Shown: positions 14,628 through 59,010 of the stretch, piece by piece
How positions within the stretch are numbered: position 1 is the first letter of the stretch
How the letters are laid out: each line of letters starts with the position of its first letter
Source: Berberis thunbergii
Taxonomy: Eukaryota > Streptophyta > Magnoliopsida > Ranunculales > Berberidaceae
Assembly (NCBI GenBank): GCA_003290165.1
Contig: QNQO01000645.1
Location: 372,001 to 436,000 of the forward strand
Reading direction: 5' to 3'
DNA: 64,000 bases
Notes under the pieces: generated by a model
Told to the model about the DNA's origin: nothing
The model's database searches: none
What the model saw: only the letters and a program-made list of their open reading frames with translations
Position numbers and translations under genes: made by a program

Positions 14628-15588
14628 TAATCAAGCATATATCTCCCATATTCAACTATTATATTGTTTGACACATTACATGATATAAACATTTTTTTTC
14701 AAATAAGACTTTTGCAACAATTTTCATGGCATTTCCTTTCCTTAAGAGTCACTTTTAATACATAGTTTATATCAAAATCAAATGTGATGAAGAAGGTAAC
14801 ACAAAGCAACATTTGATTCTACCTGAATACTAAAAGGATTTAGGAAAACTGAGTCAAGATATACCTCCACATACTAAATAACATTCACTTATATTATCGA
14901 GATACTTCATCAATATATGTTGAAATCTTGTCGACAAATTATCAGCCTATACCTACTATGTATATTGTAGTATTTGATAAAATGTCTGAATATACACATG
15001 TACTATACATACATACACCCTATCTAGACCTCTACTGAAGGGTTAACAAAAAACAAGTGGGCAATGGGGAATGGGGGATGGGATTGTGACATGCACCAAT
15101 GTCATTGTGTAGGACAAGAAGAATGTGAACATCTAAAATTCTGAGAGGCCAGGTGAAAGAGATATAAGCTAGCTAGCTGTTTGATGCTTGCATGTGCTGT
15201 AACTACAAAGAATGTGAGTATTACGAGGTATAAAACTGTGACCATTAAAGCTCAGCCAAAGAAACAAACTAAAACAAAACGCTATTACAAAACAGAAATT
15301 AAATGTTTGATAGTGAGGATTATCATATATAAGGAAAACTAGTTTGTCAGTCTATCTATTCTCGATTCGTCGTCGTCGAGATGGAATCAATTCACGGGTT
15401 GTTTTTTGTGTGTTTTTAGAAGAAGAAGAAGAAGACGACGGCCTTCTTGGATTCTTTATAAGGAGTACATGGAGGGATAAATGACCAGAAGACACCGACA
15501 ACTCATTGATCGTGATATTACCAGCCTGTACATATATTGCACACCAATACAGATTTGTTCATTAGTATTGTAATGTCATTCGTGACAT
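14628..15588. other. Spacer
   Basis: No gene recognised. A GAAGAAGAAGAAGAAGACGACG run lies at about 15420-15440, with a matching inverse tcgtcgtcg at 15369-15377. Confidence 0.4.
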
Positions 15589-15990
15589 TGATGCAGGAGA
15601 GTTTTTAAGGTTTTTAATTTGGATTTTTAGGGTTTCTAATTTGCTCTTAAAGTTATTTGCTAAATAACTTATTCGTAATCTTTCAATTTAATTAGGAGTC
15701 TTTTTAGTTTCCTTTTAGGATTAGGCTTTACTTTTTTTTAGGAATAGACTGCTTGTTCTTTTAGTATTTGATTCTACTTTTTCTTTTAGGAATATGCTAC
15801 TTATTATTCAAGTTATTTGAGTACTATAAATAGAGTTCTTCCTCAATATTTTAAGAGACTTTTGATTTTGATAATTTTGAATTGAACATTAGAATATTTC
15901 TCTGTGTTTTGGGCAATTCTCTTGTGTTCTTTCCTGTGAATTATCTGTTAGAACTAGCCTGCAAGATAATCAGTATTATGCCCGGTGTTA
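15589..15990 (+). repeat. 5' LTR of the coatomer-carrying retrotransposon
   Basis: 402 bp, ending just before the primer site at 15992-16004. A TATA-like ctataaatagagttctt lies at 15825-15841, so transcription would start about 130 bases before the LTR end. It differs from its partner by scattered substitutions and a short duplication of gggtttctaatttg in the right copy. Confidence 0.9.
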
Positions 15991-16041
15991 GTTGGTATCA
16001 GAACGTCAGCATCTTCTTAGGATGAGATTTCATCAGTTTCT

Positions 16042-16810
16042 ATGGCTGGTGGTCGTGGCCGTGGTCGTCGCGGGCAGGCTCTGAACGAGGAAGCCCCAAA
16101 TTGTGATCGTAACATTAAGGATGTGATGATTAAGGATTTACAGAGACAAGTTGTAGAGTTAACCCAGCGTCTAACAGCGCGGGATTTCAGTGATCGTGAG
16201 ATGGAAGATCACGATTCTGATTCCAGTTTCAAAAACCCGTATCACCATCGTGCTCGAATCTGGGAGCGCCGTGGTCGGGAGGATCGTCATGGAAATCTCG
16301 GTTTCGAAGTGGATCTACAAGCCGAAGGATTTGTGGATTGGTTGAATGAAGTAGAGCATATTTTTAGTATAAGGAAGTCCCAGATCATGTCAAGGTGAAA
16401 TTGGTTTCCAAAAAACTCAAAGGCAGAGCATCTGCATGGTGGGAACAGTTGAAGCGAGCACGAGACAGGCGAGGCAAGGCCAAGATCATTGATTGGGAGA
16501 AGATGAAGTGTCACTTTCTTCCTTTCGGCTACACTCAACCCTTATTTCAACGACTTCACTCGTTGAGGATCGTTTCTGAAGCCTACCACAGTGCACTTGC
16601 TGTAGTAAAACAGCAGAATTTGAGGCCAATGATCAGAAGTAATCAAAGACGTCAGGCAGTTCGCCCTCAAGAATTTTGTCCTTCCTAGCAGCCACCACAA
16701 GGTAATTCTAACTCAAATATTAGATGTTTTAGATGTGGTGAACAGAGACATAGAGCGACTGAGTGCAGGAAGCCTGCTATTCAGAAGGGTAACAATCTCC
16801 CGATTGAGGA
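16042..16810 (+). pseudogene. Ty3/gypsy gag, internally deleted
   Basis: Starts MAGGRGRGRRG; a coiled, charged region follows, then the retrotransposon gag core with EGFVDWLNEVEHIF and, after a frameshift near 16385, KLVSKKLKGRASAWWEQLKR and WEKMKCHFLP. The core is shortened: QRLHSLR is followed almost at once by SEAYHSALAVVKQQN, skipping about 50 residues of the usual domain. A stop lies at 16686-16688, and a CCHC zinc knuckle CFRCGEQRHRAAEC follows in frame (about 16728-16770). Gag forms the cytoplasmic virus-like particle and the knuckle binds RNA. Confidence 0.85.
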
Positions 16811-16869
16811 AGACATGGTAAACAAAACTGAAGAGCTTGGAGAGCCTATGTATGACACTGATGAAGAGT

Positions 16870-17579
16870 TGGATATTGTTGATGCAGATGGTTTGCAGAA
16901 TGGGGATGTTGGAGTTGCTATTGAAGACGGTGAAGTGCACGAAGAAACTGATGGAGAAGGAGGTTGGGACCTTGAGGACTTGGAGCTGCCACCAGAAGTT
17001 GATACACCAAGGGCTACTACGAATACCCGCTCTTTAGTATTTGTCACCCCGACTCAAGGCATGCCTGTAAGCTAGATCTGGATCCAAAAATCAGCTCTTG
17101 CTGCAGAGCATGTAGCAGCTGGTAATTTTGATATAGCGATGCGGCTGCTGAACCGACAACTGGGTTTAACGAACTTGGCACCTTTGAAGCCCATGCTTCT
17201 TGATCTGCACAATGGAAGTCATTCATACATTCGCGCGTTTTCCCCTTGTCCAATGATTTCATTTTCAGTGGAGAGCGGGTGGCGTGCGACGGCGAGCCCG
17301 AATGTGAGGGGGCCACTTGTACTTATGTACATCTTCTCCCAGCTGGAAGACAGACTGGAGGCTGGTTACAGAGCCACTACTAATGGATATTTCATGGAGG
17401 CTATACGCCTATTTCCAAGTATTTTGCACACTATACCACTTATTGTTGTTGAGACGAGGAGGGAGGTTGATGAAGTCAAGGAATTGATTATTATAGTAAA
17501 GGAGTATGTGCTAGGTTTACAGATGGAGCTCAAGAGAAGGGAAATGAAAGAAAATCTAGTACGCCCACAAGAGCTAGCA
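16870..17579 (+). pseudogene. Captured coatomer subunit alpha (alpha-COP) coding fragment
   Basis: About 237 codons in one frame match the end of the linker and the start of the C-terminal COPI domain of plant alpha-COP, the scaffold subunit of COPI vesicle coats (Golgi-to-ER transport). Recognisable blocks: GGWDLEDLELPPE, VFVTPTQGMPVS, AMRLLNRQLG, SPNVRG, ETRREVDEVKELIII, KEYVLGLQMELKRREMK. No intron interrupts it. One nonsense change (TAG at 17073-17075, where a Gln codon is expected) is the only break. The upstream junction lies near 16870, after gag-like acidic text; the downstream junction lies near 17579, where EFSDLVPQDLPSGLP, the pre-RT linker of gypsy pol, begins in the same frame. 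Both junctions are in frame, so a gag-coatomer-pol fusion was once possible. Confidence 0.9.
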
Positions 17580-17686
17580 GAGTTTTCTGACCTGGTGCCA
17601 CAGGATCTTCCTTCTGGGTTGCCGCAAGAGGATTCCGGTGAAGCTGTTGTGAAATCGATGACGAGTTCTTTCCAACCCGGGGCGAC
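17580..17686 (+). pseudogene. Remnant of gypsy pol linker
   Basis: Reads EFSDLVPQDLPSGLP in frame with the coatomer segment; this motif precedes reverse transcriptase in plant Ty3/gypsy polyproteins. It is followed by about 25 unassigned codons and then the 3' LTR, so the whole enzymatic region has been deleted. The ORF reads on into the LTR and stops near 17741. Confidence 0.65.
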
Positions 17687-18102
17687 TGATGCAGGAGGGT
17701 TTCTAATTTGGGTTTCTAGGGTTTGTAATTTGGGTTTCTAGGGTTCCTAATTTGCTTTCAAAGTTATTTACTAAATAACTTATTTGTAATCTTTCAATTT
17801 AATTAGGAGTCTTTTTAGTTTCCTTTTAGGATTAGGCTTTACTTTTTCTTTTAGAAATAGATTGTTTGTTATTTTAGTATTTGATTCAATTTTTTCTTTA
17901 AGGAATTGGCTACTTATTATTCAAGTTATTTGGGCACTATAAATAGAGTTCTTCCTCAATATTGTAAGAGATTTTTTATTTTGATAATTTGAATTGAACA
18001 TTAGAGTATTTTTCTGTGTTTTGGGCAATTTTCTTATGTTCTTCCCTGTGAATTATCTGTTAGAACTAGCCTGCAGGATAATCACTATTCTTCCCGGTGT
18101 CA
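17687..18102 (+). repeat. 3' LTR of the coatomer-carrying retrotransposon
   Basis: 416 bp, same start and end words as the left LTR, with TATA-like ctataaatagagttctt at 17937-17953. Flanked on the right by the target duplication GACAT. Confidence 0.9.
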
Positions 18103-18569
18103 GACATCTACTAGGCCAGCTTGATTACAAGTTTTTGTGGGATCCAAGCCCGGGGCAGCCTTGAGTACATGTGTTGAACCACTCGTATTTGAGCTCAACG
18201 AACACTATCCATCCCGGTGCTTCAAATTTTGGGTTCTTCGGATTATCAATTTTGTATGTTAGTTTTAAATTTTATTTTGATAATGAATGCTAGTTTAGTT
18301 GTGATGGCTCAATTCCTATCCCAAGCATTTTATCTTTACTTTCTTTTCTTCGCGGGTTTAGATCCACATATGAGCATCTTTGTTGCATTTACACCGTCTC
18401 CAAGACAATTTTTGTTTGCAATATAGACTCCACTTGGTACACTGTAAAATAATGCATTTTTTAAATTGATTCGGATGCATTAGTATGCATTGCATTAGTT
18501 TGCTTTGCATTACTTTACGGGCTCTTGGTAGTAACTAAGGAAAATCAATACAAAGTAGACAAGTGAGTG

Positions 18570-22026: not shown

Positions 22027-23877
22027 TGATAGGGGCATAATTATGCTATTTTTAGTACCATATTTCTATATGTATTATTAGCTATTATTTGTTAATTATG
22101 GTACTAATTGCTATTTTCATGTTTGTGTAGGGTTCCAATTACAATACTTTAAAATAGAAGCAAATTGGCAATTCATGAATACTAATTGCACAAGGACTTC
22201 ACACAAACAAGGAAACCACACCAACAAGGAAACCACAGACAGAAGAAAACAAGAATAAAAAGGGGACATACCTGGCTTTGAGAGACCACCCATCGAGCAA
22301 TAGCATTGATCCACTGCCTCCATCATCTCCTTTTCCTCCCTGATCATCCTCGCACAAACCCTAGCCGCCGTCCTCACCCATCATCAACCATCTTCACCGC
22401 CCTCATCTACAGCCGCAGACCACCGTCGGACCCCATTCATCTTCTCCTCCTTAAAACCACGGTCATTTCTTCCATCCTCTCGCCACAGTCTCTCTCGCTG
22501 TCCCTGATTGTCGCCACCCATCGCCACCTCGACAAACCCTAATCACCGTCTCAGTCCCTCGTCCTTTCCTCTTCGTCCCTTCTTCCCATTCTCAGCCTCG
22601 TCATCCCCTTCTCATTAGAGCTTATCGCGAAGAGAGGTGAAGCAGAGAAACTGAAGAAGCAGAGGAGGAAATTCGCGAGAGGAAGCAAGAAGGAACAGAG
22701 AGGTGAAGCAAATCGCGAAGTGAGGAAGGAAGGAAGATATTTCGCGCTATTCGCACCCTAGTTCCACTCAGTACCACCACGGATCAGTGTTTTTTTTTCG
22801 AGTAATTCTAGCTGGCCTGGGAAACCAGCGAGGCTGCTGCCTGGGAGGGGGTGAAATTACACTTTTGCCCCCTCCTTTTTAACACTTTTTCTAAAAGTTG
22901 TTAAAGAAGGGGGGGCAAAAGTGTAACTTCGCCCCTCCCAGGCAGTCAACCTCGCTGGATTTCCCAGGCCATTTAGAATTTTCCTTTTTTTTCATCTCTA
23001 AACATCTATTTCTCTTAATTTTAGTTTGATTATTGATTATGGATTACTGTTTAAACATAATTAATATGTCTAGCTAAACTCCTCTTAGTTAGGGGTGGAT
23101 TCGAAGCCCCGAACATGTGCTTTATAAATTAGTTGAATTTAATTTTCCTTGCTATTAGTGATTGTGTTTTGCTTAACTGCTTTATAGAGAACTTTTCCTT
23201 TTATGTTTGTTAAGGTGGCCAACTTAGTAAGCATGCTAGGATTTGGGGCTAGAGTATAGGAGAATTTCACCTAATTGTTATGATTCTGTATTCGCAAGTA
23301 GTAAATACCAAGGAACGTTGGTAAGGTTAAGTCAAAACCTAGGCAAGAACAAGATGCTGATCATACTTGTGATTGCCTAGTCAGTGTTCATATTTTCCAC
23401 AAAACTTAATGATCTTAGATTGCTATTTAACTTGCGATTCCTGTTTAGATAGCATGATAAGAATAGTTTGAAAGCGACGCTTAGTTTAATTCAACGAACT
23501 TGGGAAAATAATAAGATTAATGCAGTGCGGTCACGGTTAGTCTTGAGCATTGTCTCTCACGAGTTAGCAAGTGATTATTGAAGATTAATTTATAAGCATA
23601 TGTTTGGTGTGTGGAGATAAAACCCTTAGCTAATTTCTCATCTTTGTCATCTCTTTAGTTTATTATCTTTACATTAATTTTCGTAGTTATTTTCATAATT
23701 TAATTTAGAAAATCCAATCCCCTTTTATTTTATTAATTAGGTTTTTAGTTGTCTTTTAATTATTATTAGTGTAATTAACAAGCCCTCTAATCCCCGGTCT
23801 AGAACAATCCCTACTTATTCTATACTACAAATTACAAAGCAGGGTATTAAGTTGTGTGCTACTAAAATAGCGCATCA
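22027..23877 (+). mobile_element. Solo LTR of a second retrotransposon family
   Basis: Begins TGATAGGGGCATAATTATGC and ends agcgcatca, flanked by CCTAG on both sides (22022-22026 and 23878-23882). TG...CA ends with a 5-bp target duplication and no internal region are the marks of a solo LTR left by recombination. The host LTR's partner has the uninterrupted text cccctagcattgcatg at about 32149-32164. A further copy lies reversed at 57123-59010. It carries a hairpin MITE at 22800-22984; without it the LTR is about 1.66 kb. Short Pro/Ser-rich ORFs on both strands inside it are not considered genes. Confidence 0.88.
22800..22984. mobile_element. Mutator-like hairpin MITE, copy A
   Basis: 185 bp. 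Ends GAGTAATTCTAGCTGGCC and (reversed) GGAAAATTCTAAATGGCC; target duplication TTTTTTTTC at 22791-22799 and 22985-22993. The two arms (ggcctgggaa-ccagcgagg ... gcctgggagggg ... cacttttgcccccc) pair over about 80 bp around a loop of about 20 bases. Non-coding. Confidence 0.85.
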
Positions 23878-25436
23878 CCTAGCATTGCATGTCTTTCTAC
23901 GGCACATACAATCACAAGTTTATTTTAACCTATTCTAACCCCTAGCATTACATGTCTTCTTACGGCACACACAGTCACATATTCAAATTAATTGATTAAA
24001 GCAGGCTTTGAATAACAACAAAGGGAACTTCTAACTACCCATTAGTCTAGATAATTTTTTCGGATATAATTGGTGAAAACAAATTATTGAAATTAAGAAT
24101 TCAACTATGTTTAACGTTCAAGCGTATAGAAAACAATAAATTCAAATACGACAAACTCTAGGAAACCCTGTAGTTTCATTTTCGCCTCGACATGGGGTCT
24201 AGAAGATCATGGTGAATGATGTCACAGCACTGGTGTAGGTGGAATCCATTTCAGCATGAACACGCATCCCGAGAAAGAGTATCAGGTGGACTATGGGGGC
24301 TTAGACAGAAATTGGGGGTGCAAATAGCCAAACTGATTCAAAAATCAGTTTTCTCCAACCACAAGAGTTGCGCCTTCGTTTCCAATGAATTGATCCTCAT
24401 TTTTCTTCCTTCATACTCCTCGCGAGCTCCTTTTTATCCGGTGAAGATCACCTGCAAAAGAAAAGGAAATAGATAGGTGAGAGAGAAACGCAAAGAAGAA
24501 CAGAAAGAAGGAGAGAAACAGGGGCGGTGCTCCCTGTTGGCTGCTCCTGTCTCGGTGGTGGTGGTGTGTGTGGGTTGTTAGTCGGCTGTGAGAAAGGAAA
24601 ACAGGGATGCTCTCCCTGTTGCGTCCTTTGTTTTTTGCGCGAGGATGGTGATGGTGGTGGAGGTTCTGTTTTATGAAGTTGTGGTTGGCTCTGTTTTAGG
24701 ACGTTTTGGCTGAAGAAGAACAGACAGATAGAGAGATAAGAGGGAGGAAACGAAGGGAAGACAGGGAACTTGTCACTGTTTCGGTGGTGATGTGGTTGCA
24801 AGCCTGTTTCTTCAGTTGCAGTGCAAAAAATAGGAAGGGACAGGGGTGGTGATGGTGGTTGTTGTGCGTTGTTGTGTTGTTTGGCTGTTGGTTGAAGACG
24901 GGAGGAAGAAACAGAGATTGGCAGTAAAGATAAAGGGGCAGGGGATGTGAGATGGTGATGATGGCGTGGTTATGGTGGTTGGTTGGTGGCGAGAGACGAA
25001 TGTCTCTATGTCTCTGCTAAGAAGGAAATGAGATAAGGAGAAAGGGCCATTATGGTGGTTGGTTAGTGGCGAGAGACGAAGGTTTCTATGTCTCTGCCAA
25101 GGAGGAGAAGAGAGGCGTGGAAGGGATGAAAAGGAAATGAAAAGGAAACGTAGGAAAAAACATTTTCGAAGAAAATGGAGAGAGAAAACCTAAATAGGGT
25201 TCTCCTCTTTCCTTGTTAGGTTGGTTTTGGGTTTCTAACTCAACTTTTGGGCTTGGGCTTAGGTTAAATTAGGTGGACTTAGGTTTGTTTGGGTTAGGTT
25301 TAGACATGTGACCCGCTACTTTGTACAACTACTAGAATCAACCAATTGACCATTCCTCAAATTGTCGCTGTAATGCGATTTCATCGTTCACGCTCAAATT
25401 CCTACAAAAACATGAAAACAAAATAATTAGAATAAA

Positions 25437-29330: not shown

Positions 29331-30890
29331 CTATGTGCAAAGATCCTTCAAAATTTTGGCATAGATAGGAACTTGCTTAATAGCATCGAACAATGGAATA
29401 TTAATGTGAACTTGTTTAAAATTTTCCATTACATCGTTAGCATTTGTTCCTTTATTTGCTGGAGCTAACCATGATGGAAACAATGCCCTAGGAAAATAAG
29501 ATGTCTGAGTGGGGGTCAGAGTCAATAGGCACATCTTTAGAATGTGAGGCTTTATCAACCTCCTTGTTAGATGGAGATGCAACCTGCTTTTACTTAGACG
29601 AAGATGCAACGACACTCGAATCGGGCACTTGTACCTGATTGTCAACATGTTTTCCACTCCTAAGGGTAGTAATAGATGGGACATTTTCATGGCATGACTC
29701 AGATGTACTACCAACTGCGAATTGACCCTTCGAGTTTGGAACAGGTTGACTAGGAAATCTCCCTGGCTCTCTCTCAGAAGAAAACTGAGTAATCTTACTC
29801 ACAGCTATCTCAAGTCTATTGAGGGGTTGAGATTAGTCTTGAGTCTTGGCTTTCAACTAAGATATGTCCTTAGAATTTTGCAAGTCACAATTAGCTATTG
29901 AATGACCAAGACTCGAACATGTAGCACAGAATTCAGATGAAGCATTTGCCGGAAGGGCAGGTTGAGTCAAATTCAAAAGTGCATCTATCTTTTGAGCCAT
30001 GGTCATAACAACTGTCTCTAACTTCGAGGCAGAAGGGGGGTAAACAGATGTATCTCTAACTTCATATAGACCACCCTTACGCCTATCAGACTCCTTTCTC
30101 AAATAATCCCATTGCTGAGAATTTTCGGAAAGCGTTTCAAAAAATTCTCATATCTCATTGACACTCATTTTCATTAATGACCCACCACTAGTGGCATAAA
30201 TCATACAACAGTTTTGAGGGGTTAAACCGTCTTGGAAGTATTGAACTAGCTGCCACTTCTCGAATTCATGATAGGGACACCTGATAATGAGCTCATTGAA
30301 CCTTTCCCAACATTTATTGAAATGTCCGCCCTCTTTTTGTTGAAAATTAGATAAATCTCGTCGGAGAGCATTCGTTTTATGAATGGGGAAATACTTAGTC
30401 AAGAACTTTCTTGACAACACATCGCACGTTGCGATGAATCTCGTCTCTAATGACTTTAACCACGATTTCGCCTTATCTTTCAGAGAAAAGGGAAATAACC
30501 TAAGAATGACCGAATCATCAGAAAAAATTTGGTACTTCAAGGTAGCGCAGATGTCAATAAGTTTTTTGACATGAAGATAAGGGTCCTCTTTCTCAAAACC
30601 ATAAAAAGAGGGTAAGAGATGAATAATAGATGGTTTGAGTTCGAAACTGTTTGCATTTGTCTCAGATAAGACATGCAAAACGGAACACTACTAGGAAAAG
30701 GGGCGAAGTAATCCTTAAAGACCTTCCCCTCAGCCATCTCAGTGGACAAGGATGATGAACCTAAATAGATAATGGGAACTTTAAAAAAACTCCTCGAACT
30801 CTTGTTGGACAAGCCTACTCTTAGAATCACGCACCCAGGTATGCATAAACTATTGGATATCGAAGGTTCAAAGTCAACACTCCTAAACAA
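29331..30890 (-). pseudogene. Gag polyprotein of the gag-protease element, broken
   Basis: In order on the minus strand: an N-terminal stretch in one frame (30890 to about 30680), the gag core (30678-30148) with FYGFEKEDPYLHVKKLIDIC, LRLFPFSLKDKAKSWLKSL, KYFPIHKTNALR and ECWERF-like CWERFNEL; a zinc knuckle CATCSSLGHSIANC (about 29900-29940); and ITTLRSGKHVDNQ (about 29640-29690), all typical of Athila/Tat-group gypsy gag. Frame changes and stops near 30660, 30148, 29857 and 29590 break it. Confidence 0.85.
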
Positions 30891-31776: not shown

Positions 31777-33787
31777 TGATGGAGATTTTATTAACCTAAA
31801 TTAATAAGTTAATAAACCTTACTTGTAATACTGCAAGTGCACGGTTGTCTAACTAGTGGACAGTGGCAAATACGGGTCCATCCTATAAGGACTGACGAGA
31901 CAGTCGAATTCTAAGACTTATTTAAACTAATTTAAAGTTTGGTGGTTGCAACAGATGGAAATTACTAAATTAAGAGAACTAAATTGACAACAAAAGTTAA
32001 ACTGGTAAGATGATAAAAGAGTAGAGCGAGACATCGAATCCACCACAGATTCTTCGAGATTCATGAATCTAAATTATTGTTTTCAAGAATCAACACAACT
32101 AATCTAAAGATTAATCTACATTTGCAATTGATTTCAGCAAAGCATAAACCCCTAGCATTGCATGTCTTTCTACGGCACGCACAATCACAAGTTTATTTTA
32201 ACTAATTCTAAACCCCTAGCATTGCATGTCTTCTTACAGCACACATAGTCACAGATTCAAATTAACTGATTAAAACAGGCTTCGAATATCAACAAAGGGA
32301 ACTTCTAACTACCGATTAGTCTAGATAATTTTTTAGGATATAGTTGGTGAAAGCAAATTATTGAAATTTAGAAATCAACTGTATTTAACGTTCAAGCATA
32401 TAGAAAACAATAAATTCAAATACGACAAACTCTAGGAAACCCTATGGTTTCATCTTCGCCTCTGCGCAGGGTATAGAATATCATGGTGGATGACATCACA
32501 GCACTGGTGTAGGTGGAATCCATTTCAGGATGAATACGCATCCCGAGAAAAGAGCTACTGGTGGATTGTGGTGGCTCAAATTGAAATCGGAGTGCAAATA
32601 GTCAAACTAATTCAAAGATCGGTTTTCACCTGCCACAGGAGCTGCGCCTTCATCTCCAGCGAACTGCTCCTCGTTGTTCTTCCTTCGTGCTCCTCGCGAG
32701 CTCATTCTTCTCTGGTGAAGATCACCTGCAAAAGAAATGGAAAGAGATAGGTGAGAGAAAAATGCAAAGGAGAACAGAAAAAGGGAGAGAAACATGGGCG
32801 GTGCTCCCTATTGGATGCTCTTGTCTCAGTGGTGGTGGTGTGTGTGGGATTGTTTGTCGGCTGCGAGAGAGGAAAATAGGGATTTGCTACCTGTTGCGTC
32901 CTCTGTTTTGTGCACGAGGATGGTGATGGTAGAGGTTGTGTTTTAGGATCTTGTGGTTGGCTCTATTTTAGGACATTGTGGCTGAAGAAGAACAGACAGA
33001 TAGAGAGAAAAGAGGGAGGAAACGAAGGGAATAAAGGGAACTCGTCCCTGTTCCGGTGGCTGGACGGTGGCGATGTGGTTGCGAGCCTGTATGTTCAGTT
33101 GCAGTGCGAAAGAGAGGAAGGAACAGGGGCGGTGATGGTGGTTGTTGTGCGTAGTTGTGTTGTTTGCCTATTGGTTGAAGACGAGAGGAAAAAACAGAGA
33201 TTGACAATAAAGAGAAAGGGGCAGGGGATGTGAGATGGTGATGATGGCGTGGTTATGGTGGTTGGTTAGTGGCGAGAGACAAAGGTCTCTAAGTCTCTAC
33301 CAATGAGGAAATGAGATAAGGAGAAATGGACGTTATGGTGGTTGGTTAGTGGTGAGAGACGAAGGTTTCTATGTCTCTGCCAAGGAGGAGGAGAGAGGCA
33401 TGGAAGAGATGAGAAGGAAAGGAAAAGGAAACGTAGGAAAAATAGATTTTCGAAAAGAAGGGAGAAAGGTAACCTAAATAGGGTTCTCCTTTTTCCTTGT
33501 TAGGCTGGGTTTGGGTTTCTAGGTCAACTTTTGGGCTTGGGCTTAGGTTAAATTAGGTGGACCTAGGTTTGTTTGGGTTAGGTTTAGACATGTGACCCGC
33601 TACTTTGTACCACCACTACAATCAACCAATTGATCATTCCTCAAATTGTCGCCTTAATGCGATTTCATTGTTCATGCTCAAATTCCTACAAAAACAAAAA
33701 ACAAAATAATTAGAATAAAATATAATAATCGAAATACTAACATATATAAATTAAGGGATATATTATTTAATAATTACGTGAATATCA
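31777..33787 (-). repeat. 5' LTR of the gag-protease element (2,011 bp, uninterrupted)
   Basis: TGATGG...ATATCA, aligned end to end with the left LTR. It preserves the empty sites of the solo LTR (cccctagcattgc near 32149) and hairpin MITE B (tagaataaaatata near 33712). ORFs in it (32490-33233) are GT/GA-rich and not considered coding. Confidence 0.92.
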
Positions 33788-37231: not shown

Positions 37232-39400
37232 TCAAAGTGAGAGATGATCTAAAGAATCAATCAATCGGCCTCCAGCGCTAAAAGCACTCTCACTAGCAAT
37301 TGTTGATACTTGAATAGACAATACATCTTTTGCTAGCAATGCAAGTGTGGGGTACTTGTTCCCATTCAGCTTCCACCATCTCAAAATTTCAAACATCTCA
37401 ATCTTGTTAGTTTTCTCTAATGGATCCATGAGATACATATCCACCTCATGTGAAAGCACAATATCCTTCGCATCTTCTAACTCCTTCTCCCAATCATCCA
37501 TCATCTCATCAAGTATAGACAGACTTTCGGTTGGTGCTCCTACACTTCCTTGTTTTTCATATGTAGAGTTATTGTCAACACTTGATTGAGAATGCTAAGA
37601 ACCAAAAGAAAGAGAAATTTTTTATTAAATTAAAGTGTGAATTAAAATAACCAATAAACTTTATAATAATGAAACAACGTTTGAAGAAAGTTTTGAACTT
37701 TTGATTACCTATTTTGAACCCTTATATTGTTTTTGGGAATCGACGACTTATTGAGCATATTCATCACACAAGTCCTTCATTAATGCCCTAATTTCCTTAC
37801 TTTTTTCTTCAATATCCTCTTCCCTATACCTCAATTTCTTTTTACACAAGTGTAAAAAGTGTCTCAATCTGAACCTTAGATCTAGGATAAGGGCAACAAC
37901 AAACATTTCGTTCAATGACCCAATTAAACCAAAATACTTATTATATTTTTTTCATGCTCTCTTCCATATCACGTAGCACATTTTCCACAGCACTTCCAAA
38001 TTGCATATACTCGGGCAAAAACAATTTATCAATCTCTGCTTCCATAGCAATCACATCATTGACAACTATTTGTGACGTCGGATGCTTGTTAGCACTCATC
38101 TTCACAGTCACTAGGTAGAAGACTTTCAAAAAAGTCACAAAAACTTCGGCACTTTCCCAATCTTTCTCACAGGGTGGCCCAACCCTTCCTTTAACCTTTC
38201 TTTTCAGATCTACTTCTTCATCATCATCTAACTCCTCATCTTTTACGAAATAACCTAAGTATGCATTGTCATCTTCTATACTCATCCTATCAAATACCTT
38301 TTTAAATTCCAAACTAGATTCTAGCATCAGATATGTACTATTCCACCTAGTAGGCACATCCATCACAATAAACCTTTTGTAAGTTAAAAACTCCTTCTCA
38401 ACAATTTCCTTGAAACAAGCAAACCTTTGAGGGCTTGATTTGACAAACTTTACAACATTTTTAATTGATGCCACATTTTTATCCAACTTTTTCAACCCCT
38501 CTTTCACTTTTAGGTTGATAATGTGAGCTAGACATCTCACATGCATATATTTACCCCCCAAAATAAGTGAACAATTTGACTTCATCCTCATTTTAGCAAG
38601 TACATACTGAAGTGCCACCTTATTAGCCGATGCATTGTCAACTGAAATACACATCACTTTTTCAATCTTCCACGCTACCAAACACTACTCTATCAACCTC
38701 CCTATTTGTTTGCCTTGATGACTAGGAATGATACAAAAGTTTAGGATTCTTTTGTGCATATTTTAGTCATCATCCGCAAAATGAGCTGTTAGCACCATGT
38801 AGTTCACATTTTGGATACTTGTCCATGTATCAGTAGTCAAGCTGACCCTATGCTTGCTCAATTGCCATTTTAAATCTTCTTTCATGTCATTTTAACTTTG
38901 TAACAACTCCCTCATAGCAGTTCTTCGAGATGGAACATGTAGTCTAGGTTGTATAACACTCATCATCTGCCTAAAACCTTCCTTCTCAACAGCATTAAAA
39001 GGTTGCTCATCAATCACTAGGAATTCAATAATAGCTTTCAAACTTTCTTCTTGGCTAAATCCCCTAGAAATTAGCATGTTGCTACCATCACTAGACCTAC
39101 CAAGAACCTTATGTTTTAAGTCCACGTTTGGTTTATACTTTTTGCATATATTGGTGATGTGTTTACCAGAAGTACTAGTGTCACCGTATCACATGCAAAC
39201 ACTTGAACACATTAATTGCACTTCACCTTGATTACATCTACCTCTACCATCATACTCTTTCCTTCAATTGCAATTTCACGTGTTTCTTTCACAATAAATT
39301 TAGTGATGTGATCCCAAACCCAAGATCTAGATTGTGTAGTTTTTTGAGCATTTGGTGTTTTTCTTTTTCTTGAGAGGACGGGCTTGGGAGAAGGCATGGA
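37232..39400 (-). pseudogene. hAT transposase (BED-finger, RICESLEEPER-like), broken
   Basis: On the minus strand: the N-terminal BED zinc-finger start SWVWDHITKFIVKE and KCN (39400-39212); a segment with FLVIDEQPFNAVEKEGFRQMM (39125-38892); the long core 38681-37941 with CISVDNASANKVAL, MHVRCLAHIINLKVKEGL, VPTRWNSTYLMLE and a following acidic region; and the C-terminal dimerisation domain KYPTLALLAKDVLSIQVSTIASESAFSAGGRLID (37504-37232). It matches the hAT family (Ac/Tag1, RICESLEEPER). Stops and frameshifts separate the blocks, so the protein is not made as one piece, though the core domain is still long and open. Confidence 0.92.
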
Positions 39401-50800: not shown

Positions 50801-53800
50801 TCATTTTGTTTAGTTGTTAATTTCTAGATTTTACAACAGTTCCTGTAGGTGACATTGATTATGTTCTGTTATATTGAAAGGCAAGAAAATGCCCCCAAAA
50901 GTTTATAATTGAGTCCTCAGCCTCTGGGTTGTCGATGGACAAACATTATCAAAATGTGGAAATGAACCAGAGGCCTGTCAATGGACAAGCATTATCAAAA
51001 TATGTGGAGCTGAACCAGAACTGGATATGCTAGTTCTAGACCTTAAAACAAAGATTAATACTAATAAAACCCTTCAAACTCTAAAACTACTGGGTACTTG
51101 TCTCATAGATAAATCAAATATGTAACTTGCTTTTATTTTTTGTAATAATTGAAAATCAATTTCTGAGATGTAAGGACCACAACCAACTGCACCCATTCTC
51201 ACCCATCTTTTTTCTTTCTTTTCTAAAACCTTCTTTTCTCTTTATACCTCTATTTTGTTCATAACTTTTAAGATATATAAATAAAAATGTTTTGTGAGTA
51301 GTTTTTTTTCTTTTTCTTTCTGCGGGGAGGGGAATGGTTTCACTTCTAGAGAGGACACAAGTGCTTAGTTTTCAAGAAAAAAGTGCTTACTGTGAGCACA
51401 CACAAACAATATGAAATTGTTTTAAGAGAAGTGGGATATTTCAGTGGTTGGTGTTCTATGTATCTTCAGCATGTTCAGTGGAACCGCCATCAATACTTAA
51501 ATTGGATACACTTTTGACAGGTGGGGCTTCTCCTTCGTGCTATGGTTTATCCTTCTAAAACAACAATATACTTGGCTGGTTCTGAAATATTTGGAGGTCA
51601 GAGGGTTTTGACCCCTCTACGTGCCATGTATGCCAATTCAGTGGATCACACTTCTTTGTGCAGCAAGCAAGAGCTATCCATCCTAATTGGATCTGAAACT
51701 TCTCTTCCTACCGATCCTTTTCAGCCTCTTCAAGGCAAAAGTGACAAACACCTTGAAGAAGAATGGAAGAAAGCTGGTCCAAGGCCGAGGCCTCTTCCTC
51801 CTCCTCCAGATCGACCTTCTTATAGACATGAAAAGGAAGGATGGTATGGATGGATAACTGAAACAGACACGGAACCTGACCCTTCACCTGCAGTTCTTAG
51901 GAGGCATGCTCACAGGCTACTCTGGGATGCTATTGATTATATTGTCTCAGTAGAAGCAGATGCATTTTTTCCAGGATTTAACAATGATGGAAGTGGATGG
52001 CCAGACTTTTCGAGTTTGGTCATGGGACAAAGACTATATGAAATGGCATCTGCTAGAACCTATCGACCAGACAGGTAATATCTCAACGCTTAACTTTATG
52101 AATTCTAAGTTTGTGAAAACCTGCAATAGAGTAGTAAATTAACTACGTAATAAAGTTTCCAAATGACTACATGGTTCTTCATTACCCAATAGGATTTTTT
52201 TTTTCATAGGTAATTTAGTTCAAGTTTACTGGGATAGTCAAGGAATTTAATGACTTCCACTTCATTTTGGAATTGAGATAGTTTGTTTGCCTTATATAGA
52301 AGTTTGTGTAGTGTAATTTGAGAGTTTCTACCCCAAGGCTTCCATTCATACCCATGCCATGCAGTCTCTTCAGAATAGAGTTTTTCCATAATTTTGGGAC
52401 TATCAATTCCTCTGCAGTAGAAACCTCGATTTACATTACCTCAGACTCAGCTTCTGTGGATGGGATACTGTGATCTTTATTTGGAAGCAGTATGCTCTGC
52501 AAACATGACAGCAACAAAATTTTGACTTCATGGCTTTCTGCTCCAATGTAATGGATTTTTTTTTCTCACAATTTATATTTTATTTTATGTAATTCACAAC
52601 TCACAATAAAAGGAAAATAGATATTGGGCTAAGAGGCCCAATTTCTAGTTTGAATGCCCATTTAGGACCCTAGTAAATGAAAATTATTGTTTTTTAATTC
52701 GCTTGACCTCTGTTCAAGCTGAAAATTTGAGGAAAATTATAAATTCACATCAGAAACAATGCAGTAAAGTTTCATTCTATTTTGACGCGTGTGTCTCGAG
52801 ATATGCATTAAATGGGATAAAGGGCATTTCTCTATTAATATCACGAAGCGAGTGAGGGCCCACCTTGGGCATGACACAGGTCGTCCGATAGGCCAACCAA
52901 CACCTATCCAAGACCACACGAAAGGGTGGTCCTTAGACACCCACAAAAAACGTTTGTCAAGATATTTAATGGTGAGGACCTAAACAAATGAGGAACATTG
53001 TTGAAACGGGCTGAAATTTTAACAAACATTTCTAGTGTTACTCTGTAATTTTCTTGAAACTTTCGGCTCAAATGAATTATTAAACAATTTCTTCAATTTG
53101 AGTAGGGTCCATTTAGCTAAATGAAATTAATTGGATTCTAAACTCGCTGCAAAAGCCCAAATTAGTCATTCTAGGCCCAATGCCCTAAAGAAAAATTGTT
53201 TATTCTTAAATTAAAGTTAATTCATATGAGGCTGTTTCTGATTATGATGGGAACTGCCACCCAAGCCTTGATTGACAAGGCCTACCTACCCAACTTAATT
53301 CAAACCAACTCAACTCTCGTCTTCCCTCATCTTCCCATTACTCAAATGTCTTTAACTTGGAGAAAGAAAACTTGGCGGAAAAAGTATGTATGTCCATATA
53401 CAGTGGAGACTGATGCTACTAATCAATTGAAAAAAATGCGTTGAATGTGTTTATTTGAAATGTGTGCAGATCTCAGATTCCTATTGTTATTTAATTAAAT
53501 AATGTTTTCGATGATTAAGCTTGCTCTTGTTTAGCGTTAATTAGTTCAAGACATATCTTGGTTTGAAATTTAACTTTCTTAATATATTATTGTTTAATAT
53601 TCTCTTGAATATTGCTTCTATTTTCTTTGAAAGCAGAAAAATTATTGCAGAGCTTTTCAACATTACCCGTGAACATCTTTACCATCCAAAACGAAATTGG
53701 ACTTTGTTGGTGCAAGAACATCTTAACAAAAGCTTGGGTGAAGGCGGCCTTATAAGGGAAGCCCGTCTTTCAAAACCAACTTCATTCCTTACTCACCCAC

Positions 53801-54093
53801 TTCCAGAATGTTCTTGTAGAATATCGGAATCTACCAAAAAAGTGAATCCAGTAAAGGATGTTGATAATCGGTTGTTGTATGGAGGTGAGGATGAGTGTCC
53901 AACATGGATGCAACATGGTCTTGCAATGGCCTTGGTAAAAGATCTTGGAGCAAAAGAAGACGAACTAAGTGGGAATGATACCTCTGAAGATGAAGTGGAT
54001 TTTGATGAGCAGCATGACTCTGATGACAAAAATGGTGGAGTCGGCTCAAAACCATCATCAGAACAAGAAGCAGAAATGGATCCGGATGAATAA
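41840..54093 (+). CDS. O-fucosyltransferase-like protein (type II membrane glycosyltransferase), 10 coding exons
   Basis: Exons: 41840-41998, 42082-42166, 42935-43005, 43083-43171, 43285-43528, 46233-46345, 46506-46596, 47597-47725, 51521-52074, 53637-54093; all introns GT-AG, frame kept, 663 codons. Residues 9-28 form one membrane segment after a short basic N-terminus, so the catalytic part should face the Golgi lumen. Family blocks: CDLVTISRLLNATLVLPE (about 107-124), RVAFHALHFRPEIQALG, PYLAFHPG-TRE--AYHGC (261-277), YLAGSEIFGGQRVLTPLRAMY (344-364), DYIVSVEADAFFPGF (466-480), and an acidic tail (about 615-663). This is the plant O-fucosyltransferase/GT106-like family, implicated in wall and glycoprotein sugar transfer; the exact sugar and acceptor cannot be read. 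The canonical HxRxE-type motif is replaced (see finding). Introns 5 (2.7 kb) and 8 (3.8 kb) hold repeats. No defect is seen. Confidence 0.93.
44616..44795. mobile_element. Mutator-like hairpin MITE, copy C (in intron 5)
   Basis: 180 bp; ends GAGTAACTCTAGGCAGCC and (reversed) CAATAATTCTAGGCAGCC; target duplication GTTGTAGAA / GTTGAAGAA (44607-44615, 44796-44804; eight of nine bases equal). Arms with gccagggctacc, ttttttggccagggtt, gggctcttttacacttttacccc pair for about 75 bases. It is transcribed within the pre-mRNA of the O-fucosyltransferase gene, where it could fold into a long hairpin. Confidence 0.85.
50130..50410. repeat. Intronic minisatellite (AAGGAAACTTTCCTT units)
   Basis: In intron 8, about eight imperfect units of roughly 28-35 bases based on caaggaaactttccttgtc followed by ttaattg. 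The unit itself is partly palindromic (aaggaaactttcctt). No gene. Confidence 0.7.
50925..51020. repeat. Direct duplication in intron 8
   Basis: tgtcgatggacaaacattatcaaaatgtgg and a following cctgtcaatggacaagcattatcaaaatatgtgg are adjacent near-copies, spaced by about 53 bases and both followed by gaaccagag or gaaccagaa. A local tandem duplication of no evident function. Confidence 0.7.
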
Positions 54094-57122: not shown

Positions 57123-59010
57123 TGATGCACTATTTTACTAGCACACAACTTAATACCCTGCTTTGTAGTCGTAGTAAAAAATAAGTAGGGATCATTCTAA
57201 ATCGGGGGTTAGAGGGCTCACTAACTAACACTACGGGTAACTAAAAGAAAACTAACAAACTAAATAAGAAAATGTTGGGGAATTGGTTTTCCTAATTTTA
57301 AACTAAGAAAATTACTGTAAAACTAATAAAAACTTTAGAAAAGTAAACGATGAGAACTTAGCTAAGGATTTTATCTCCACACACCAAACATATGCTCATG
57401 AACTAAATTCCAAAAATCTCTTACTAACTCGTGAAGGACAATGTTCAAGATTAACCGTAATCGCACTGCATTAACCTTATTATTTTCCCAAATTCCTTGA
57501 ATTACACTAAGGGTGTGTTTGGTTGCATGGAATCCTATGTCATGGAAATTCATGAGAGAGCCACTACATTTTAGGCTAAATTGACATATCACTCCACATC
57601 TACCATTTGATTTTGTAATCAATGGTGAGAATGGAAGTCTCATGAACATGAGAATCCTACTCCTTGGTCCCCCAAGACATGTGATTTTCATATTCATGAA
57701 ACTTTCATTCCCACTATTGATCACAAAGCCAAATGGTGGATGTGGAGTGATATGTCAATTTAGCCTAAAATGTAGTGGCCCCCTCATGAATTCTCATACC
57801 ATAGGATTCCATGCAACCAAACACACCCTAAGCGTAGCTTTCAAACTATTATTTTCATGTTACCTAATCAGGAATTGCAATTTGATAAACAATTCAAGAC
57901 CATTAAGTTCTATAGAGAATATGAACACTGATTAGACAATTACAAGTATAATCACCATCTTATTCTTAACCTGGGTTTTTACTTAACCTTACCAACGTTC
58001 CTTAGTATTTACTACTTGTGTAAAGGATTGTAACAATTAGGTGAAAATCTCCTATACTCCAACATCAAATCCTAGCATGCTTACTAAGTTGCTCACCTTA
58101 ACAAACATACAAAGACAAGTTCTCTATAAATCAGTTAAGCAAAACACAATCACTAATTAATAAGGAAAAATTAAATTCAATTAAATTATAAAGCACATGT
58201 TCAAGACTTCGAATTTACCCCTAGCTAAGAAGGACTTAGCTAGACATATTAATCACATTTGAACACCAATCCGTAACTTACTATCAAACTAAAAGTAAGA
58301 GAGATGGCAAATAGCGAATCAAAGAGAATAAATCTGTTCTTTTCACGATTTGTTCTTTATTCTTGCTGTGTTCTGGTTGTTTGCGCTTGAGAATGGATCG
58401 ACTGAAGGAAGAGAGACTCTTCGAGAATGGGAGAGAGGGCGACAATGGCGATTTGGTTGAGGGCGATAGAGGAGAGGTATGTGTGTCTGATTGAGGTGAA
58501 GAGGGAGATGATGATGCTGCTACGATTTGGGTGTGATGAGATAAGGGGGTTGTGGTTAGGCGATGGTAATTGATGATTACTTGGGATGAAAGTGTGATCT
58601 GGCTGTGAGAGAGATGGATTGTGAGATGATAGGTTACTGGCAAGAAGGAGACAATTGGAATGTTAGTGACTAGCTGGAACAATAGTTTGTTCGAAGGTTG
58701 CGAGAGAGGGGTGAGAGTGATGGCGATGGTCTGTGGCGAGAAGTATTTGTGTGTGACTGACTGTGGATGGAAGCTGAGAAGGGATTGCGAGTTGGGTGAT
58801 TGTTGTTGCAAGGAGGAGGTGATGGTGATAGCGAGGGAGGGATGATCTCGAGAGGAGTTATTGTCCCTTTTGTACACGTTCTTTGTAGATTTCCTATTTC
58901 TTGTAATTTTCTTTTACCACAAGTATTTTTAAATTGCCAATTTGTATTTTTTAGCTCCTTTATGAAATTTTAGTATTGGCAACCTACAAAAACACGAAAA
59001 TAGTATTACT
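57123..59010 (-). mobile_element. Partial second copy of the solo-LTR family, reversed
   Basis: Starting tgatgcactattttactagc, the minus strand follows the order of the solo LTR at 22027-23877: the agccctctaa/aatcccc block, the ctccacacaccaaacatatgc block, the gcactgcattaaccttatta block, and the ctagcatgcttac block, then the GA-rich part and, near 58985, ctacaaaaacacgaaaatag. After about 59010 the match ends, so the outer LTR end is missing or too diverged. No hairpin MITE is present at the place corresponding to copy A. It contains a Tourist-type MITE. Confidence 0.78.
57511..57828. mobile_element. Tourist-type (PIF/Harbinger) MITE
   Basis: 318 bp with ends GGGTGTGTTTGGTTGCATGG and (reversed) the same word, target duplication TAA (57508-57510, 57829-57831). 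Long arms (catttgaattt-like and ttaggctaaattgacatatc) pair for more than 100 bases. Inserted in the LTR copy; the interrupted LTR text rejoins across it (attacac|gcgtagctttc). Confidence 0.9.

Follow-up and report, generated by a model that had tools for sequence, protein, structure and literature searches.

The window, i.e. the whole 64-kb stretch of DNA analysed, contains a confirmed non-autonomous Ty3/gypsy LTR retrotransposon of Berberis thunbergii, 2.5 kb in size, that carries a piece of the coatomer alpha-subunit (alpha-COP) gene. We assign a probability of roughly 0.8 to the following history. A gypsy element, probably already without reverse transcriptase (RT) and integrase, captured 0.7 kb of alpha-COP sequence once in place of its protease region, was mobilised in trans in a burst, and has since been subject to neutral decay.

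The element spans positions 15589 to 18102 and its parts are given in Table 1. Paired direct LTRs and a short target duplication are present, as in LTR retrotransposons, and the two 0.4-kb LTRs within a perfect GACAT duplication of the original prediction were thereby confirmed. 367 of the 401 aligned bases are identical between the two LTRs, and the gaps consist of one of 13 bases and two small ones. The 3' LTR has the termini TG..CA and the 5' LTR the termini TG..TA. The sequence TGGTATCAGAAC appears to resemble the tRNA-Met type primer binding site of plant elements.

Table 1. Parts of the alpha-COP-carrying element and its target site duplication (window positions).
Feature	Position	Strand	Basis
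Target site duplication GACAT, left	15584..15588	.	flank identical in other-haplotype copy L009
5' LTR, 402 bp	15589..15990	+	alignment with 3' LTR
Putative primer binding site TGGTATCAGAAC	15993..16004	+	sequence
Gypsy gag remnant, internally deleted and interrupted by a frameshift and a stop	16042..16862	+	
Captured alpha-COP coding segment, COPI_C domain, 718 bp with joint overlaps included	16863..17580	+	
Pre-RT stub of gypsy pol and 3' untranslated part	17581..17686	+	
3' LTR, 416 bp	17687..18102	+	alignment with 5' LTR
Target site duplication GACAT, right	18103..18107	.	sequence

The gypsy-type assignment of gag rests on P0092, an Aristolochia gypsy protein without coatomer sequence having the Pfam entries PF03732 (gag) and PF19259 (Ty3-capsid), because both Pfam matches of the window gag fall below the curated cut-offs. 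Retrotrans_gag is matched with 22.5 bits (E=1.4e-4), slightly below the cut-off of 24.1, and the CCHC motif (CX2CX4HX4C, positions 16725-16766) matches zf-CCHC_5 with 18.2 bits, the cut-off being 27. The gag, the CCHC motif and the pre-RT stub all align with P0092. The coatomer part matches COPI_C on either side of one stop codon with 49.6 and 203.5 bits (cut-off 25; E=6e-60), and solved alpha-COP chains match the block with E-values down to 5.7e-26. The predicted order of a truncated gypsy gag with CCHC motif, alpha-COP and a pre-RT linker was thus borne out, while the limits of the alpha-COP block had to be corrected from 16870-17579 to those of Table 1.

A gag-coatomer fusion had been proposed as well, and both joints are indeed in frame in the window copy. 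This copy is nevertheless unable to make the fusion, because a frameshift and a stop interrupt gag ahead of the CCHC motif, and a further stop codon at 17073-17075 interrupts the coatomer part. No RT, RNase H or integrase was found in the window element by reading frames and Pfam search, and the element is termed non-autonomous because RT and integrase are absent. A TRIM is a very short element without coding parts such as gag; this class was ruled out for the window element, which has 2.5 kb with gag and pol remnants.

Elsewhere in the window, an Rfam match to snoR71 (30263-30369, +; 44.7 bits, cut-off 40) lies antisense within a gypsy gag frame at 30148-30687 (-) that matches Retrotrans_gag with 62 bits. 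A direct repeat of 1.57 kb with 88% identity occupies 23878-25436 and 32151-33719; pieces of 23008-23877, beside its first copy, recur on the opposite strand at 57123-58305. Exons of a probable O-fucosyltransferase gene were found at 51518-54093 (+), the first reading frame matching O-FucT with 45 bits. The 247-codon reading frame at 37941-38684 (-) gave no Pfam match at E 0.001; we presume a resemblance to hAT transposase.

Further copies were searched for in the 2.24-Gb assembly, which comprises 11732 contigs and both haplotypes, with a 486-bp query taken from the block. The 378 first-look candidates yielded 40 scored matches (E<=1.3e-169, 87-100% identity), i.e. 4 host alpha-COP genes and 36 others including the window. 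Rows were read for 20 and a further 10 of the 39 matches besides the window, so that 27 of the 36 matches outside the host genes, the window included, were covered. A search of the host genome for related elements had been suggested with the original prediction; the one made with the block recovered the same joints in further copies. L010, L011, L014 and L015 have the block and none of the element parts; L010/L011 and L014/L015 are the alpha-COP genes, two paralogs in two haplotypes each. The haplotypes are 99.1 and 99.2% identical in the longest stretch, the paralogs 92.5% over 4.9 kb, and the open frames around the block comprise 651 and 996 codons in the two paralogs. Among the best 120 listed matches of alpha-COP, Stephania japonica ranks first with 86%, pointing perhaps to an early-diverging eudicot. 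As the source genes sit elsewhere, disruption of a gene by the element was rejected.

The 27 element rows fall into 19 clusters at 97% identity, which we regard as independent insertions, each haplotype pair being counted once. Block identity is 88.4-93.0% between clusters (median 90.8), 90.8-93.9% to the host gene A and 90.2-92.9% to the host gene B. Perfect 5-bp duplications flank the window element, its allele L009 and L022. In L027 the duplication is imperfect, with 4 of 5 bases matching, and L012 gave none on comparison of both element ends. This result covers five of nine rows, the 3' position used being off the LTR end in L016, L017, L024 and L025. In five clusters, L016, L018, L020, L022 and L025, about 90 bp of the LTR (positions 118-209) are present in an additional copy that is absent from the window LTRs. 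In L025 (2702-3150, +) and L026, a second family LTR of opposite orientation adjoins the minus-strand element.

All 25 read rows with a preserved left joint, from gag ...GATGAAGAG to TTGGATATT... of alpha-COP, agree in it; in L027 and L028 the left part of the block is missing. The position of the right joint, GAGCTAGCAG AGTTTTCTGAC, does not vary among the 27 read rows, and a small deletion immediately precedes it in L032 and L034. Identical joints across 19 clusters point to one capture followed by amplification, and the prediction that the host segment had moved with the element holds. Independent insertion of coatomer sequence into one element was rejected, since the joints are identical across the copies read and the block shows no signature of a separate insertion.

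In L012 and in L013, its counterpart on the other haplotype, the coatomer part is accompanied by a non-coatomer stretch that leads from the end of gag across the protease region to the pre-RT stub. Because protease is kept there, the coatomer piece stands in for the protease region, and the segment does not represent the standard gag/pol sequence of the relatives. The non-coatomer stretch runs straight into the 3' end without RT or integrase. Since the loss of both is common to the non-coatomer relative, it is probably older than the capture. L012, like L013, is a three-LTR chimeric element (minus strand, 5464-1563) with outer LTRs of 94.2% identity; its inner LTR has lost the 3' end and is joined directly to the non-coatomer protease region. 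Such joins can be produced by template switching in LTR elements (PMC1950507).

Template switching during reverse transcription had been proposed for the capture itself and is favoured, short of proof, by short host matches at both joints. The overlap is GAAGA at the left joint (window 16863-16867) and GCTAGCAG at the right joint (window 17573-17580). Between the host gene and the L012 relative, GAAGA is common at the left joint and 7 of the 8 bases of GCTAGCAG at the right, where L012 serves as a proxy from one relative for the parental joint sequence and the true parent may differ. The ancestor would have been a non-autonomous Ty3/gypsy element, RT and integrase probably being gone to judge from the non-coatomer relative. 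A single capture would have exchanged its protease region for 0.7 kb of alpha-COP coding sequence, in sense orientation and in frame. Two template switches with an mRNA source would be the likely route, one from the element RNA to a co-packaged alpha-COP mRNA at the match GCTAGC, and one from this mRNA back into gag at the match GAAGA.

Alternatively, break repair or ectopic recombination might have copied genomic alpha-COP DNA into an integrated element that was amplified afterwards. The alignment to host alpha-COP, suggested earlier as a check for removed introns, places the block within a single exon of both paralogs. mRNA and genomic DNA therefore look alike here, which is compatible with entry at the DNA level, and intron loss is uninformative for the source. 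The sense orientation, the two in-frame joints and the exchange of the sequence between gag and the pre-RT stub, with short matches, argue against DNA-level entry, as does the template-switch type join that L012 displays within the family. We consider it unlikely and favour template switching between RNAs.

The chimeric element would then have been mobilised in trans by an autonomous element, since it encodes neither RT nor integrase. Of the 24 rows that include the site, 22 have a gag deletion whose ends fall within two copies of an 11-bp repeat; the exceptions, L025/L026, are one haplotype pair and keep the segment. Therefore, the capture probably preceded the gag deletion, unless the segment was regained by recombination in L025/L026. 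Loss of the gag segment between the two repeats would have been followed by the burst, with the coatomer part as a passenger in neutral decay.

A tree of the first 21 rows is star-like, and its supported inner branches are haplotype pairs and host genes, the host paralogs forming a clade (99/97). Among sites discriminating the paralogs, the 19 copies agree with A at 18 and with B at 9 (19 and 11 in the first set). These numbers are roughly what would be expected of a family that branched off close to the separation of the paralogs or earlier. The block differs between copies by a median of 9.2%, similar in size to the LTR divergence of 5.8-14.4% with gaps counted (seven elements with LTR pairs aligned over at least 360 bp). 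The most divergent pair, L022 (14.4% with gaps), was left out of the conversion to ages. At a substitution rate of 7e-9 per site and year, the LTR ages of the remaining six elements are 4.3-8.4 My. They are 2.3-4.5 My at 1.3e-8 per site and year, the rate used in PMC5664825.

Singleton changes in the coatomer part of 19 copies amount to 158 (112 nonsynonymous, 43 synonymous and 3 stops). The synonymous share of 27% compares with 28.5% expected (p=0.79), where the expectation was computed from the observed mutation spectrum. In an earlier set of 10 copies, a change was counted if at most one of the other copies disagreed, and 62 of 238 changes were synonymous (28.2% expected, p=0.47). C-to-T or G-to-A changes make up 83 of the 158 and 158 of the 238, respectively, the latter as expected for methylated DNA. 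The host paralogs by contrast have a dN of 0.028 and a dS of 0.140.

At least one stop is found in the block of 13 of the 19 clusters (host frame, insertions dropped), and the six stop-free clusters, L012, L017, L037, L030, L031 and L027, all have gaps. Stops recur at codons 94 and 178 (three clusters each) and at codons 156 and 216 (two each), which may reflect later ancestry shared by a few copies or mutation hot spots.

These figures bear on the idea that selection has kept the coatomer part as a gag-coatomer fusion protein, e.g. as a COPI decoy. The in-frame joints agree with it, and so does a pairwise dN/dS below 1 between copies (median 0.72, 45 pairs), a measure obtained with a method that ignores the C-to-T mutation bias. 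Mild constraint on that basis was rejected, as the spectrum-aware tests show neutrality. The stops in 13 clusters also speak against selection. Furthermore, every site fixed in the family against both hosts alters an amino acid (6 of 6 for 10 copies and 4 of 4 for 19 copies), although the numbers are small; there is thus no sign of conservation before the burst. Functional conservation was rejected on the singleton changes and these fixed sites together, and maintenance as a fusion protein appears extremely improbable. The singleton changes fit neutral decay and no function of the coatomer part is therefore supported; in the present data it is a passenger.

Another possibility concerns the living alpha-COP genes. 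There may be hundreds of decaying copies, and if silenced copies give rise to small RNAs, these could affect alpha-COP in trans, with the host tolerating or escaping the effect. The decaying copies still have long exact stretches in common with the living genes: of the 683 24-mers in the block of host A, 369 are found in one or more of the 27 element rows, and no 24-mers from the rest of the host A exon occur in them. CpG observed/expected is 0.50 and 0.40 in the host blocks and 0.37 and 0.34 in the rest of the exon. A methylation footprint on the host block, in the form of a reduced CpG ratio relative to the rest of the exon, was not found. This leaves no trace of lasting trans-silencing and argues against small RNA action, which we regard as doubtful.

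The capture of genes by plant LTR elements is well known, and the few cases mentioned in the original prediction were an understatement. For maize, 425 such elements are given, which derive from at least 189 captures (PMC2774510), and for rice and sorghum 672 and 1343 LTR-captured genes, respectively (PMC3726574). Among the open-access literature matches listed for coatomer and LTR capture, none concerns alpha-COP capture by an LTR element, and the word coatomer is absent from the main texts of PMC3726574 and PMC13317346. Likewise, none of 94 listed proteins, eligible sizes being 0.55-1.75 times 350 aa, combines gag/CCHC with COPI_C.

The maize LTR element Bs1 has transduced H+-ATPase and other gene pieces (PMC13317346) and is termed a low-copy element (PMC2774510). 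Both elements have host coding pieces inside an LTR element and a chimeric gene, and the host segment between the LTRs transposed with the element in 19 clusters, as in transduction of the Bs1 kind. The differences are that one host gene is involved here, that the protease region was replaced, and that the copies form 19 clusters. TRIMs with gene fragments measure 1172-1449 bp; the fragments consist of exon sequence only, the elements have 5-bp duplications, and most occur in at least two copies (PMC4717578). The alpha-COP element resembles them as a small non-autonomous LTR element with an exon-only fragment and 5-bp duplications, and differs by its 2.5 kb with gag and a pol stub. In pepper, LTR elements contain 86-123 NLR genes per genome, and non-autonomous elements account for about 72% of these genes (PMC5664825). 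There, many genes of one family with reported purifying selection are concerned, whereas the alpha-COP fragment is single and in neutral decay.

Transduced frames are described to occur in one or a few copies (PMC7264820), to which the alpha-COP family would be an exception in copy number. The maize captures average at most about 2.2 elements each, whereas here many derive from one. The family may serve as a clean case for following a capture, with one event, constant joints, two living source genes and a relative retaining the replaced region, and it would put the steps in order: loss of RT and integrase, capture at the protease site, shortening of gag, burst and decay. Compared with the known systems, what is new is the captured gene, alpha-COP, and the copy number reached from one capture.
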